Origin: Formosimonas limnophila
GTDB taxonomy: Bacteria; Pseudomonadota; Gammaproteobacteria; Burkholderiales; Burkholderiaceae
NCBI RefSeq assembly: GCF_014652675.1
Contig: NZ_BMZG01000004.1
Location: forward strand, 833-64,832
Direction: 5' to 3'
DNA: 64,000 nucleotides
The notes below the pieces were generated by a model that was not told where the DNA came from, did no database searches, and saw only the letters and a list, made by a program, of their open reading frames with translations. A program made the translations under genes and the position numbers. Within the stretch, counting starts at the first letter, position 1. Each line of letters opens with the position of its first letter. Shown in pieces: positions 41,790-47,668 of the stretch.

Positions 41790-43202
41790 TTAAATGAAAA
41801 ACAAAAACGTGAGCAGCACGAACAACGGAATCAAAATCGCAAATGACCAAGCCATGTAGCCAAAAAACGATGGCATTTTAACGCCGCTGTGTTCGGCGAT
41901 GGCTTTGACCATGAAGTTAGGAGCATTACCGATGTAACTTAATGCGCCCATGAACACGGAGCCAGCCGAAACCGCAGCCAGTGTGCTGGCCAAACGGGTG
42001 GTCAGCTCGGTGACATCGCCACCTGCCAAATTAAAGAACACAAGGTAAGTCGGTGCATTGTCGAGAAAGCCAGACAACATCCCTGTTGCCCAGAAATAGC
42101 GCCAAACAATCGGCTCACCCGTATCAGTGTGTACGGCGGCAATCAAGCCTGCGAACGGCCCATCCAAACCTGCTTGCAACATGGTAATCACGGGGGCAAT
42201 GGTGATGAAAATCGCGAGAAATAATTTCGCCACTTCAAACACAGGACCGAAGTTGAACTGATTCTCGTCACGCACTTTCATTGCCGTGGTTTTCCACGAC
42301 AATGCGGCCATTAAAATCAAGCCCGCATCACGAACCAAATTCTGCAATGTCACTGGTGTACCGAGAATATCAAATGAGACCCCAGAATTCCACAAGCCGC
42401 TGATGAGAACGAAACCGATTGCCCCAGCAAGCCAGAGAAAGTTCAAGCCGCCATCAAACGAGATGCGTTTGGTGTCAGGCGTTGGATCCATGATGGCGGG
42501 CAACTGCTCTTCACGACGGTGAAAGTAATAACTGTCAATGGCGTAGAACAAAGGCAGCAAAATCACTGTAGAAACCAATGTATCCAACCAAATGTTTTCC
42601 AATGTCCATGTAAACGGAACACCCTTTAAAAAACCGAGAAACAACGGTGGATCACCCAGTGGCGTCAGTGAGCCACCGATATTTGCGACAAGGAAGATGA
42701 AAAACACGACGACATGCACTTTATGCCTTCGGTTGTCATTCGCGCGCAGCAGTGGTCGAATCAGCAGCATGGAGGCTCCTGTCGTGCCCATAATGGAAGC
42801 AAGCACGGTGCCGATGGCCAGTATCGCGGTGTTGAGCTTGGGGGTGCCGTGCAGATTACCTTTGATGTAAATGCCACCAGAGATAATATACAAACAGGCA
42901 ATAACAATAATGAATGGAATGTACTCCGCAACCAGCGCATGCGTCACAATGTGAATCAGCTCATTGCCCCCAAAACGCATCGCAGCTGGGACCATAAACA
43001 ACAGCATCCAAAATGCTGCAATTTTACCAAAATAATGATGCCAAAAATGCGGCGCGATCAGGGGAAATAGGGCGATTGATAGCAATATGCCGATAAATGG
43101 AATGGCCCACATCAAGCTCAGTTCGGACATGCTGCCGCCTGCGGCTAAGGCTGGGCAGGAGGCAAGAGCCAGTAAAAATAATGTGATTGTTTTTGTGTGC
43201 AT
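41790..43202 (-). CDS. nhaD: Sodium:proton antiporter, NhaD type
   Basis: 470-residue inner-membrane protein with about 12 hydrophobic segments; the N-terminus MHTKTITLFLLALASCPALA may be a cleavable signal. NhaD/ion-transporter features: IMGTTGASMLLIRPLLRAN, ANIGGSLTPLGDPPLFLGFL, SGFLDNAPTYLVFFNLAGG and GALSYIGNAPNFMVKAIAE. It exchanges cytoplasmic sodium for protons. The DAPTY/NAP segments are the transport core. Located next to two sodium- or proton-linked glutamate transporters. Confidence 0.92.
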   Translation of the reverse strand: MHTKTITLFLLALASCPALAAGGSMSELSLMWAIPFIGILLSIALFPLIAPHFWHHYFGKIAAFWMLLFMVPAAMRFGGNELIHIVTHALVAEYIPFIIVIACLYIISGGIYIKGNLHGTPKLNTAILAIGTVLASIMGTTGASMLLIRPLLRANDNRRHKVHVVVFFIFLVANIGGSLTPLGDPPLFLGFLKGVPFTWTLENIWLDTLVSTVILLPLFYAIDSYYFHRREEQLPAIMDPTPDTKRISFDGGLNFLWLAGAIGFVLISGLWNSGVSFDILGTPVTLQNLVRDAGLILMAALSWKTTAMKVRDENQFNFGPVFEVAKLFLAIFITIAPVITMLQAGLDGPFAGLIAAVHTDTGEPIVWRYFWATGMLSGFLDNAPTYLVFFNLAGGDVTELTTRLASTLAAVSAGSVFMGALSYIGNAPNFMVKAIAEHSGVKMPSFFGYMAWSFAILIPLFVLLTFLFFI

Positions 43203-43357
43203 ACATTGTCCCCATTAAAGGTTATTTTAGTCGCACTCACTGAAAAGCGAGTCGCGCATCATAACACTGTCGCGTGTGTGGTTAAAGTGCCATCATTAAA
43301 AGTTCGCACCATTTTGGTGAAATTTGCTGTCAGTTAAAATCTTATATAAACCTTGAC

Positions 43358-43388
43358 AAAAAGCGAGCAGAATTTCTGCTCGCTTTTT
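43358..43388. terminator. Terminator of gltS
   Basis: aaaaagcgagcag / ctgctcgcttttt perfect stem with five-base loop; symmetrical A and T runs. Confidence 0.9.
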
Positions 43389-43433
43389 CGTTTATCTGTT
43401 CAATTGCAGACTGGTTTTAGCCATTATCAAACA

Positions 43434-44684
43434 TTAGCTAAAAAAGCCCATGAACAAAGAAATGATGATGGCATTGATTGGGTCAATGAACAATGAACCA
43501 ACCAAAGGTACGACAAAAAATGCTTTCAAAGATGGACCATTTGCTTTGGTGAATGACTGCATGTTTGCCATCGCGTTTGGTGTCGCACCCAAGCTAAAAC
43601 CACAGTGGCCTGCAGACATCACCGCTGCATCGTAGTTTTTACCCATAACACGGAATGTGATGAAGTAAGCAAACAGAGCCATTAAGATGGTTTGTACGAT
43701 CAAGATGATAACGAGTGGACCAGCAATGCCGGCCAATTCCCACAACTTCATAGACATGAGTGCCATGGTCAAGAAGAACATCAAGGACACATTGCCGATG
43801 ATGTCAAACTGGGCAACTGGTAAAGTCCAGTTTTTTGCATCAATCACATTGCGAACGATGACTGCTACCAGCATTGGTAGTAAGTAACTTGGCAACGCAA
43901 TACTGATTTTCACACCCAACACGCCAGTCAAAAACGCTGAAAAGGCTTTTAAACCGATGTTTATAGGATCTGTAATGATATAACCGACACCAATACACAG
44001 AGCGATCAAGATAATGGCGTACAAAGATGTGTCGGTTGTGGTTGATTTGGTTTCAGAAGTTGTCTCAATGTTTTGTGGAACAGATGGGGTGTCTACCATG
44101 CTTGAGTCAAGCTTGTGGCGTTTGAGCAAACGCGATGCCACTGGACCGCCAATCAAGCAGCCAAACACCAAACCCCAAGTTGCTGAAGCAATGGCGGCAG
44201 GTGTTGCGCCAACCGCACCTGCTTTTTCGAGCAATGGGCCGAATGCCGCGGATGTACCATTACCGCCTGTCAATGAGACAGAGCCAGCAGACAAGCCGAT
44301 GAGCGGGTGAATGCCCAAAGCCGATGCCAAAGTCGTGCCCACAGTATTTTGGATAATAACCATGATCACTGCAGCTGCTAAGAAAATCATGACTGCCGTG
44401 CCGCCTTTTTTGAGTAACTCAAATGACGCCATAAAGCCGATGGTTGTGAAGAATACCAGCAGCAAAAAGTCCTGCATGTCTGAATAAAATGCGAACTTAA
44501 ATGCACCTGTTTGGTAGCCAATCAATGAAACGATTGAGAACAGCAAGCCGCCAATGACTGGACTGGGGATGAAAAAGCGCTCCAAAACGGAAATGCGTTT
44601 TTTGAGAAACTCGCCAATGACGATGAGTACAGCAGCAATCGCTACCGTCGTCGCCATATTAAGTTTAATTTCTGTTATTTCCAT
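43434..44684 (-). CDS. gltS: Sodium/glutamate symporter
   Basis: 416 residues. The ATG at 44684 (MEITEIKLNMATTVAIAA) has an AAGGA site and matches the family start; the frame stays open upstream through the duplicated leader. Motifs: FFIPSPVIGGLLFS, TTIGFMASFELLKKGG, the first signature GSVSLTGGNGTSAAFG, and SAGHCGFSLGATPNAMANM near the C-terminus. Imports glutamate with sodium across the inner membrane. It shares a near-identical 187-base promoter/leader with gltP, the next gene upstream, indicating common control. Confidence 0.95.
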   Translation of the reverse strand: MEITEIKLNMATTVAIAAVLIVIGEFLKKRISVLERFFIPSPVIGGLLFSIVSLIGYQTGAFKFAFYSDMQDFLLLVFFTTIGFMASFELLKKGGTAVMIFLAAAVIMVIIQNTVGTTLASALGIHPLIGLSAGSVSLTGGNGTSAAFGPLLEKAGAVGATPAAIASATWGLVFGCLIGGPVASRLLKRHKLDSSMVDTPSVPQNIETTSETKSTTTDTSLYAIILIALCIGVGYIITDPINIGLKAFSAFLTGVLGVKISIALPSYLLPMLVAVIVRNVIDAKNWTLPVAQFDIIGNVSLMFFLTMALMSMKLWELAGIAGPLVIILIVQTILMALFAYFITFRVMGKNYDAAVMSAGHCGFSLGATPNAMANMQSFTKANGPSLKAFFVVPLVGSLFIDPINAIIISLFMGFFS

Positions 44685-44689
44685 GATAA

Positions 44690-44877
44690 GTTCCTTTTGC
44701 GTGATGCGTTGGGGTTGGTGCTGCACTGACTCTCCCGCCACGTGTGTTTCTAATAGTGCTAAAGTCTGCTTTTTGCAGCGCATGTCCCATGCGGAGGAGG
44801 GACTGTGGATAGATGTGCTATAAAAAGCTGGTGCATTATAAAGGCTGTGCGTGTCTTTACAAGCATTGATGTGAGAC
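44690..44877 (-). repeat. Duplicated promoter/leader, copy 1 (gltS)
   Basis: About 187 bases nearly identical to 46303-46485. Contains the promoter (TTGTAA 44862-44857, 16-base spacer, TATAAT 44840-44835) and a hairpin region (arms 44814-44828 and 44768-44782) that begins at the expected transcript start. In this copy the arms have two mismatches and one G-U pair. Confidence 0.88.
44835..44862 (-). promoter_or_regulatory. gltS promoter
   Basis: Minus strand TTGTAA, 16-base spacer, perfect TATAAT; identical in copy 2. Confidence 0.8.
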
Positions 44878-44906
44878 AAAAGCGAGCCGAAGCTCGCTTT
44901 TTTATC
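44876..44906. terminator. Terminator of gltP
   Basis: aaaagcgagc / gctcgctttt stem with CGAA loop and flanking A and T runs, 20 bases after the gltP stop. Confidence 0.87.
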
Positions 44907-44925
44907 AAAACCAATCACATTATGA

Positions 44926-46296
44926 TTAGCCCATGTTGTGATGACCTTTGTCTGATTCAACATGGTGGCTCAAGGTTGCAGCAGCTTCTTCTTCAATCAT
45001 CGCCGCGCGTTTTGCTGCGTCTTCAACGGAGAGCAACTCGCCTTCCCATTTGCCGATCACAGCAGATGCAACTGAGTTACCCACTGCATTGGTTGCAGAA
45101 CGACCCATGTCGAGGAAGCGGTCAACGCCCAAAATCAACAACATACCTTCAACTGGCAAGCCAAACTGTGCCAAAGTACCTGCAATCACCACCAATGATG
45201 CTGATGGAATCCCCGCCATACCTTTAGATGTCACCATCAATGTAAACAACATGGCCAATTGCGTACCAAAATCCAAGTGGATGCCGTAAAACTGAGCGAT
45301 GAACAACGCAGCAAACGTACAGTACATCATTGAACCGTCAAGATTGAACGAGTAGCCCAAAGGCATAACAAAGCTGGAAATCTTACGGTTGACACCGAAG
45401 CGATCCAACGCGTCCAAGATTTTTGGATAGGCGGCTTCTGATGATGCGGTTGCGAACGACAAGAAAAAGGCTTCTTTGATTTCTTTGAGCAATGTGAATA
45501 CACGTTTGCCTAAGAACAAGTAGCCGACAAATACCAACAATGCCCACAGTACGAACAAAGCGATGTAGAACGTACCCATGAATTTACCGTAAGTTACCAA
45601 TACGCCCAAACCTTGTTGCGCAACTACGGTAGAGATGGCAGCAAATACAGCGAAAGGCGCTGCTTTCATCACATAACCAGTGATTTTGATCATGACGTGT
45701 GACAATTGTTCCAAAATGTCTACTAAGCCTTTGCCCACTGGACCCAACGCACCCAAAGCCACACCAAAGAAAACCGAGAAGAACACGATTTGCAGCAGTT
45801 TATTGCCCGATGCTGCATCAGCGAATGAAGTTGGAATCAATTGTGCAGTGATAAATGCGACGAAACCAGAATCTTTCACCCCTTGTGCGAAACCATCCAA
45901 TTTACCTTTACCTGCAGCGATTTGCTCAGGCGTCAATGGTTGTAATGTACTGCCAACACCTGGTTGGAACAGATTTGCAAAAATCAAACCCAAGAACAAT
46001 GACACGACAGAGGCGATGATAAACCAACCCAAAGCCTTTAAACCGACGCGGCCAACTGCTTTGCCTTGCCCCATTTGCGCGATACCAACGACCAAAGTCG
46101 AGAATACGAGCGGTGCGATAATCATTTTAATCGCACGCAAAAACAACGTCGATAACAAACCGATATACGACATATCGACATTAATCGCTTTGGTGTTGAC
46201 CAAATAACCGAAGATAATACCTAAGATCATTGCAATAATGATGTATATCGCTAAGCGACCGCTGCCGCCTTTTGATGAGCTATTCATGTTAGCCAT
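44926..46296 (-). CDS. gltP: Dicarboxylate/amino acid:cation symporter (glutamate/aspartate type)
   Basis: 456-residue DAACS-family transporter with eight helices and two re-entrant loops. Hallmarks: FLRAIKMIIAPLVFSTLVVG, the serine-rich loop SFATASSEAAYPKIL, GYSFNLDGSMMYCTFAALFI (NMDGT-like), SKGMAGIPSASLVV and DRFLDMGRSATNAVGN. The aspartate/asparagine pattern fits GltP or DctA; glutamate is favoured because gltS with the same leader lies next door. Start at 46296 has an AAGGA site. The acidic tail ends in HHVESDKGHHNMG. Confidence 0.93.
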   Translation of the reverse strand: MANMNSSSKGGSGRLAIYIIIAMILGIIFGYLVNTKAINVDMSYIGLLSTLFLRAIKMIIAPLVFSTLVVGIAQMGQGKAVGRVGLKALGWFIIASVVSLFLGLIFANLFQPGVGSTLQPLTPEQIAAGKGKLDGFAQGVKDSGFVAFITAQLIPTSFADAASGNKLLQIVFFSVFFGVALGALGPVGKGLVDILEQLSHVMIKITGYVMKAAPFAVFAAISTVVAQQGLGVLVTYGKFMGTFYIALFVLWALLVFVGYLFLGKRVFTLLKEIKEAFFLSFATASSEAAYPKILDALDRFGVNRKISSFVMPLGYSFNLDGSMMYCTFAALFIAQFYGIHLDFGTQLAMLFTLMVTSKGMAGIPSASLVVIAGTLAQFGLPVEGMLLILGVDRFLDMGRSATNAVGNSVASAVIGKWEGELLSVEDAAKRAAMIEEEAAATLSHHVESDKGHHNMG

Positions 46297-46302
46297 AATT
46301 AT

Positions 46303-46485
46303 TTCCTTTTGTGTGATGCGTTGGGGTTGGTGCTGCACTGTCTCCCCCGCCACGTGTGTTTCTAATAGTGCTAAAGTCTGCTTTTTATAGCACATGCAGT
46401 GGATGGACTGTGGATAGAATGTGTGCTATAAAAAGCTGGTGCATTATAAAGGCTGTGCGTGTCTTTACAAGCATTAATGTGAGAC
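46303..46485 (-). repeat. Duplicated promoter/leader, copy 2 (gltP)
   Basis: About 183 bases nearly identical to 44690-44877. Here the hairpin arms are a perfect 15-base inverted repeat (gctttttatagcaca at 46380-46394; tgtgctataaaaagc at 46422-46436), with the outer arm at the predicted 5' end of the mRNA. About 100 bases of leader follow before the start codon. Confidence 0.88.
46443..46470 (-). promoter_or_regulatory. gltP promoter
   Basis: Minus strand TTGTAA (46470-46465), 16-base spacer, TATAAT (46448-46443). Confidence 0.8.
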
Positions 46486-46717
46486 AGAGTAGAAAAAAAC
46501 AATAATTGTGTGTGAATTGTTGTTTTTGGCTTTCTTATCGCTGTTGTTCGTTATCTTTGCAGTTAATTGTTTCGTTTTTTTATAATGTGCAGAATAAGGG
46601 ACGGTTTGGGTGGGTTGAAGCTTTGGTTTTTTTAGGGTGGTTTTTGCACGAGTTTGGTGTTTTTTTGTGCCTAAAGACCATGATTGTGGCGTTCATGACA
46701 ATAAATAGGGACAGAAA
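46486..46717. other. Intergenic region upstream of the hydroxyacid dehydrogenase
   Basis: T- and G-rich 232 bases with no supported gene. It must hold the promoter of the 46718 gene; no clear box pair was found. Confidence 0.45.
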
Positions 46718-47668
46718 ATGACGGGTTTGATTCTTTCAAAGGCGGCTTTGAGTTACCAGCATTTTGCCGAGCAGTCTCGGATAGAAGACTTACGGGATTG
46801 GTGGGTGACAGAGTGTCTGGATGATGTGTTGTCCGCCGACGACTTGCGACGCGCCTCAGTGCGGTGGCTGTTGGCTGAACCATCTTTGGCTTTGGCGGTG
46901 TTGCCTTATTTGCCAAATTTGGTTTGGTTGCAATCGACTTGGGCGGGTGTTGAGGTGTTGCTTGCACCTTCGTTGCGGCGTGACTATACGTTAACCAATA
47001 TTCGAGGCATATTCGCACCGCTGATGAGTGAGTATGTGCTGGCACATTGCTTGGCACATGAGCGGCGCTTGTTGGCGCATGAGGCTGCCAAGAGAGAGAA
47101 ACGCTGGCTGAACGAGCACAATGGGGTACTGCGTGGCAAAACTCTATTGATTATGGGTGTAGGCTCCATTGGGATGGGCATTGCCCAAGCTGCGCGGTTC
47201 TTTGGCATGAGGGTGCTGGGGGTGGTGGGTACAGCCCGCCCGATGAGTGATGTGGATGAGGTGGGCACTTTCGTTGATTTACCAACTTTGTTGCCTCGTG
47301 CTGATTATGTCGTGAATGTTTTGCCCAATACACCTGCGACACAAAATGTGGTGGATGCGCGCTTTCTATCTCTGATGAAGTCTTCGGCGGTGTTTATGAA
47401 TGTCGGTCGTGGGCAAGCTGTCATAGAGGCCGATTTGGCAGCGGCTTTGTCGAACGGCATTATCTCGGCGGCGGTGCTTGACGTGTATCGTGAGGAGCCG
47501 TTACCTGAGCATCATGTGTTTTGGGATACGCCAAACTTGACATTGACCTCACATACCGCAGCACCGAGTTTTCCAGAGGAGGTGTTTGGGGTGTTTGCTG
47601 AGAATCATCGTCGATTTGTGGCGGGAGAGGATTTGATGTATCAGGTGAGTTTTGAGCGGGGTTATTAA
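46718..47668 (+). CDS. D-2-hydroxyacid dehydrogenase, GhrA-like (glyoxylate/hydroxypyruvate reductase)
   Basis: 316 residues. Rossmann motif LLIMGVGSIGMGIAQAARFF, catalytic arginine region NVGRGQAVIEADL, glutamate in YREEPLPEHHVFW and histidine in LTSHTAAPSFPEE, the triad of this family. The N-terminal substrate domain is divergent (WLLAEPSLALAVLPYLPNL, LQSTWAGVEVLL), as in the GhrA group. It reduces glyoxylate or hydroxypyruvate with NADPH; substrate assignment is by similarity only. Confidence 0.87.
   Translation: MTGLILSKAALSYQHFAEQSRIEDLRDWWVTECLDDVLSADDLRRASVRWLLAEPSLALAVLPYLPNLVWLQSTWAGVEVLLAPSLRRDYTLTNIRGIFAPLMSEYVLAHCLAHERRLLAHEAAKREKRWLNEHNGVLRGKTLLIMGVGSIGMGIAQAARFFGMRVLGVVGTARPMSDVDEVGTFVDLPTLLPRADYVVNVLPNTPATQNVVDARFLSLMKSSAVFMNVGRGQAVIEADLAAALSNGIISAAVLDVYREEPLPEHHVFWDTPNLTLTSHTAAPSFPEEVFGVFAENHRRFVAGEDLMYQVSFERGY

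Follow-up and report, generated by a model that had tools for sequence, protein, structure and literature searches.

The window analysed here is a stretch of 64,000 nucleotides from Formosimonas limnophila. Along its minus strand, the genes and signals of interest follow in the order gltP, a terminator-like hairpin, gltS, a second terminator-like hairpin and a gene for a citrate-type transporter. As a correction to the earlier note, gltS and gltP both lie on the minus strand. The gltP gene (44926–46296, minus strand) encodes a dicarboxylate/amino acid:cation symporter of 456 aa that matches PF00375 (SDF family), and the best PDB sequence match of this product was a solved aspartate transporter. 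Because the product fell below both the GltP and the DctA NCBIfam cut-offs, gltP is only the most plausible name for its gene. The gltS gene (43434–44684, minus strand) encodes a sodium/glutamate symporter of 416 aa, which matched TIGR00210 at 386.7 bits (cut-off 310.75). The two transporters thus belong to unrelated families (TIGR00210 and PF00375) and each stand behind a copy of one control region, as the earlier note had claimed. The third gene (41790–43202, minus strand) encodes a putative citrate transporter, CitMHS_2 (PF16980), and lies by synteny directly 3' of gltP in the genus mates. Additionally, the 18 bases just 3' of gltP (44906–44923, minus strand) matched, at 17 of 18 positions, plus-strand sequence where the citrate-type transporter gene begins (43178–43195); this match is inverted and A/T-rich and possibly due to chance.

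The duplicated control region

The promoter, leader, ribosome site and start codon of gltP form the original copy of the region (46293–46486, minus strand), and the derived copy lies upstream of gltS (44681–44878, minus strand). The two were 89.1% identical over 201 columns (blastn, E = 1e-63) and were the sole significant self-repeat among the window matches listed (blastn, non-self, E ≤ 1e-3). A search of the genome revealed no third copy of the leader, and the two copies stand in tandem at one locus. The homology begins with TGTC, 16 nt upstream of the -35 box, runs through the AAAAGGAA ribosome site to ATGG and ends there. Aligned base by base, the copies differed by 12 mismatches and 3 indels; the promoter and the 3' part of the leader had changed little and the middle most, with 8 of the 15 differences in 42 mid-region columns (65–106) that were picked post hoc. 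Nearly identical sequence upstream of both genes, including promoter, leader, ribosome site and start codon, was therefore borne out at 89% over about 200 bp. For the leader of 185 bases that had been proposed, the duplication held and the length did not: the repeat spans about 195 bp with the promoter, and the transcribed leader would measure about 140–150 nt, a length that depends on an inferred transcript start.

Each copy contains a TTGTAA-16-TATAAT promoter, at 46443–46470 for gltP and, by promoter scan, at 44835–44862 for gltS (both minus strand). Both sites carry 10 of the 12 sigma-70 consensus bases and were the top two of 7 promoter-like sites in 43100–46800. Since this number is no higher than chance (6.3 expected from shuffles), the promoter call rests on the duplication and on conservation in relatives. 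A TTGnnn-16-TATAATGC promoter precedes gltP in all four genus mates that have the gene (L007–L010, with both the spacing of 16 and TATAATGC kept), 144–188 nt from the ATG. In the window, 150 nt lie between the -10 box and the ATG of gltS, and 146 nt between those of gltP.

The leader might instead be coding, with both genes beginning upstream and sharing an N-terminal extension. An open frame indeed runs from a leader ATG into both genes (..KKQTLALLETHVAGE.VQHQPQRITQKE.IM), and the nine gap-free differences before the start fall on the third codon position in five cases, the first in three and the second in one. However, five of nine is little more than the three expected without selection. 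Moreover, the frame is closed 8–24 codons upstream in 4/4 genus mates, with dissimilar residues before MANxN/MATxN, and AAAGGAA stands closely 5' of the conserved start in all six sequences. On the closed frame and the conserved AAAGGAA, an extension through the leader was rejected, and we regard it as highly improbable.

Origin of the two copies and of gltS

The genus sample comprised six genomes, namely the genome under study and five genus mates, one of which is 85% complete. Orthologues of gltP, 81–85% identical, were present in four of the five mates, the fifth being the genome of 85% completeness. In all four, the citrate-type transporter gene comes immediately after gltP, across a gap too small for gltS, and gltS was found in none of the five mates, which makes it a lineage-specific insertion at a site that is empty in relatives. 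Because the promoter and its spacing are kept at gltP in 4/4 genus mates, the gltP copy of the promoter and leader is, by comparison of sequences, the ancestral one and the gltS copy the derived one.

The gltS gene was also sought in wider samples. Among 249 genomes sampled from the family, the own one included, 73 had a match at E ≤ 1e-60, and the 72 others did not exceed 46% identity. In the class sample (369 genomes), no genome besides the own one passed 1e-100, and in the phylum sample (398 genomes) eight others passed 1e-90, the best at 63% identity in a different family of the same order. Every match in plasmid records was below 60% identity, the best coming from Cetobacterium and Fusobacterium (53%). 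Being missing from the genus mates and reaching at most 46% identity in the family sample, gltS appears to have been acquired and to have come to lie behind a duplicate of the gltP control region; its source probably lies outside the family.

The gltP gene showed a distribution of its own. It was 73.9–74.6% identical to Arenimonas homologues, compared with up to about 63% in the same tblastn for the own-family loci examined outside the genus, and one partial own-family match reached 67%. Arenimonas is a gammaproteobacterial genus of the Xanthomonadales, and this closeness suggests that gltP, too, may have been transferred at an earlier time. Three genus mates had an additional, distant match of the SDF family (L011, L012 and L013; 37–49% over the matched stretch, the third being a short piece), and the own genome gave one match only to gltP.

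Leader structure and the RNA-sensor question

A metabolite-sensing RNA had been suggested for the leader. Such a cis-regulatory RNA, either a riboswitch or a protein-binding hairpin, would sense glutamate or a related signal and would have been copied for the same response of gltS. In keeping with this, long leaders precede all five gltP genes found in the genus (144–188 nt from the -10 box), and they share a short hairpin of 4 bp. The hairpin region lies 53 nt before the gltP start in the gltP leader (46318–46356, minus strand), and the same hairpin recurs in the gltS leader (44706–44744, minus strand). In the six sequences aligned, it begins 53–67 nt before the start and reads GGGG/CCCC in most and GAAG/CUUC in L010; at gltP of the four genus mates it is clear in three and remodelled in one. 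Pairing was kept in 23 of 24 cells and included two compensatory pairs. A covariance model built on the hairpin (R1) recovered its six input leaders at E-values between 1.8e-6 and 1.7e-4, with no further match under E 0.05 in the six genomes, in each of which 150 of 242–440 first-look candidates were scored. Weaker R1 matches were taken as chance: L158 and L159 lie in reading frames, L160 over a frame of the opposite strand and L161 between frames, and two further matches (E 4.8) were treated likewise.

Against an RNA sensor, however, both compensatory pairs come from L010 alone, and the two-pair level was attained by 17 of 500 shuffles, so the compensatory changes that the earlier note had proposed to seek were present in one sequence at a level that shuffling can match. 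Rfam gave no match at gathering across the window and none with E < 1 around the leaders. The two leaders folded with z of -0.56 and -1.69 relative to shuffles, of which 53/200 and 10/200, respectively, folded equally well or better. A longer hairpin at the 5' end of the gltP leader (15 bp; 46380–46436, minus strand) is species-specific: two mismatches interrupt it in the gltS copy with no compensation, and no counterpart appeared in the genus mates when their leaders were compared by alignment alone.

The search for the hairpin motif was extended to 111 gltP-type loci, 6 from the genus and 105 from outside it, after L013, which had no match, was dropped. The pattern GGG[AG]GA[GC]AC was found upstream of L007, L008 and L009 only and hence at 0/105 loci outside the genus. 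Two of the scanned stretches were of reduced value: L103 had only 91 bases, and that of L115 lies partly inside the gene because the match began only at residue 49. Similarly, a DNA search with the leader in 149 genomes returned the own genome only (0/148 others). Conservation of the leader beyond this strain, by which the earlier note proposed to judge its reading, was therefore absent from the DNA search and present in the alignment of orthologous loci, where the promoter was kept in 4/4 and the hairpin was clear in three and remodelled in one.

With no Rfam match, folding little or no better than that of shuffles and a 5' hairpin that is not kept, the idea of a metabolite-sensing RNA has found no support to date. 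We consider a cis-regulatory RNA sensor improbable; a riboswitch in the leader is possible and unproven. Slightly less probable still is the more specific version, in which the conserved gltP hairpin would be a cis-acting RNA particular to the genus. It would couple the translation of glutamate importers to a signal for amino acids or nitrogen and would have been copied whole to gltS. If this were true, the lineage would have placed the acquired transporter under the sensor that also governs gltP. The small conserved hairpin may perhaps act at the level of translation or on mRNA stability. Shared transcription and translation signals would offer a simpler reading than a riboswitch, and co-regulation of gltS and gltP appears likely.

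Route of duplication and relation to known systems

The terminator-like hairpin 3' of gltP (44879–44900, minus strand) has the core AAAGCGAGC-4-GCTCGCTTT, and the one 3' of gltS (43360–43386, minus strand) has the same stem, with unlike loops of 4 nt and 9 nt. A simple terminator scan reported the latter on the plus strand, found no intrinsic terminator inside either leader and also missed the hairpin after gltP, so that its result speaks only weakly against a transcription attenuator or T-box. Local alignment of the hairpin pair scored 33, and the best of 4974 other stretches scored 31 (0/4974 at 33). TTTTGTC follows 3' of both hairpins and, after the gltP hairpin, runs into the copied leader. 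A GCGAGC/GCTCGC stem is present downstream of gltP in 4/4 genus mates. The exact AAAGCGAGC/GCTCGCTTT stem occurs at four places in the own genome (2.2 Mb), each counted once though it appears on both strands, and two of these are the sites after gltP and after gltS. The other two hairpins with this stem lie on contigs C9 (30601–30622) and C13 (3091–3113) of the same genome (G000).

The shared stem and the TGTC junction favour duplication of the entire gltP unit in tandem. In the ancestral state, gltP would already have possessed a sigma-70-type promoter of its own, followed by a leader of about 140–150 nt. The whole unit, consisting of leader, frame and terminator, would have been duplicated in tandem at the TGTC microhomology, and gltS would then have taken the place of the second gltP frame, from the start codon up to the terminator. 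The outcome would be gltS directly after gltP, behind the second promoter, leader and ribosome site, with both transporters probably under the same control. We put the chance of this route at somewhat over one half.

The promoter and leader may instead have been copied by themselves, through short-patch duplication or template switching, with gltS arriving earlier or together with the segment; this account differs from duplication of the whole unit in the route alone. It fits the observation that clear homology ends at the start codon. No remnant of a second gltP frame was seen downstream of gltS either: a local alignment confined to the interval from gltS to its terminator recovered the terminator only. 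The common stem would then be coincidental or a terminator common in the genus, and coincidence is conceivable because terminators with this stem recur elsewhere in the genus, where the exact AAAGCGAGC/GCTCGCTTT stem is present in 6/6 genomes (1–2 places in each of the five genus mates), also at loci besides gltP. However, the exact stem occupies only four sites in 2.2 Mb, half of which belong to the gltP-gltS locus, and the TGTC junction suits tandem duplication. We therefore hold copying of the leader alone to be rather unlikely.

Taken together, we consider it probable (roughly 70%) that an acquired gltS was placed behind a copied gltP control region, with duplication of the whole unit as the likeliest route and both transporters probably co-controlled. 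The proposal in the earlier note that a regulatory region was copied for shared control was upheld for the copying, its direction from gltP to gltS and the genomic context; common expression of the two genes we infer from the shared signals. The locus would illustrate cleanly how, in nature, an acquired gene can gain a complete native control region by duplication, and relatives show the site still empty. The captured region consists of promoter, leader, ribosome site and perhaps terminator, the source gene is adjacent and has a similar role, and the two 89%-identical copies reveal which parts of the control region stayed constant.

A mobile promoter exists as several dispersed copies per genome. 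Mobile promoters and promoter propagation were reportedly treated by Matus-Garcia et al. in 2012 and van Passel et al. in 2014; PMC8049555 cites both papers, and PMC9944727 cites the first. The idea is related to the present case, the common feature being a near-identical promoter segment before two unrelated genes in one genome. In contrast, the copies at gltS and gltP are two in number and adjacent at one locus rather than dispersed. Horizontal regulatory transfer, as presented in the excerpt of PMC9944727, likewise has in common that regulatory DNA moves independently of its gene, whereas the gltS leader was copied from a neighbouring gene within one genome. Among the top-ranked titles in the open-licence literature searched, no paper on a leader shared by gltS and gltP was found.

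The excerpts of PMC11111574 and PMC5526668 describe how acquired genes capture promoters by way of duplication and illegitimate recombination. There, as here, a host promoter comes to lie directly before an acquired gene, and short microhomology with illegitimate recombination suffices. Correspondingly, gltS is new to its lineage, and the native promoter is older than gltS at the site. Compared with the cases in those excerpts, the gltS case involves a copy of the leader in full together with the ribosome site, the duplication probably took in the entire host unit, and the order of gltP then gltS is, by our reasoning, unlike the product of a single tandem duplication that joins a promoter to a gene. 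Since promoter capture by acquired genes has already been described, the gltS/gltP case would belong with this known phenomenon.
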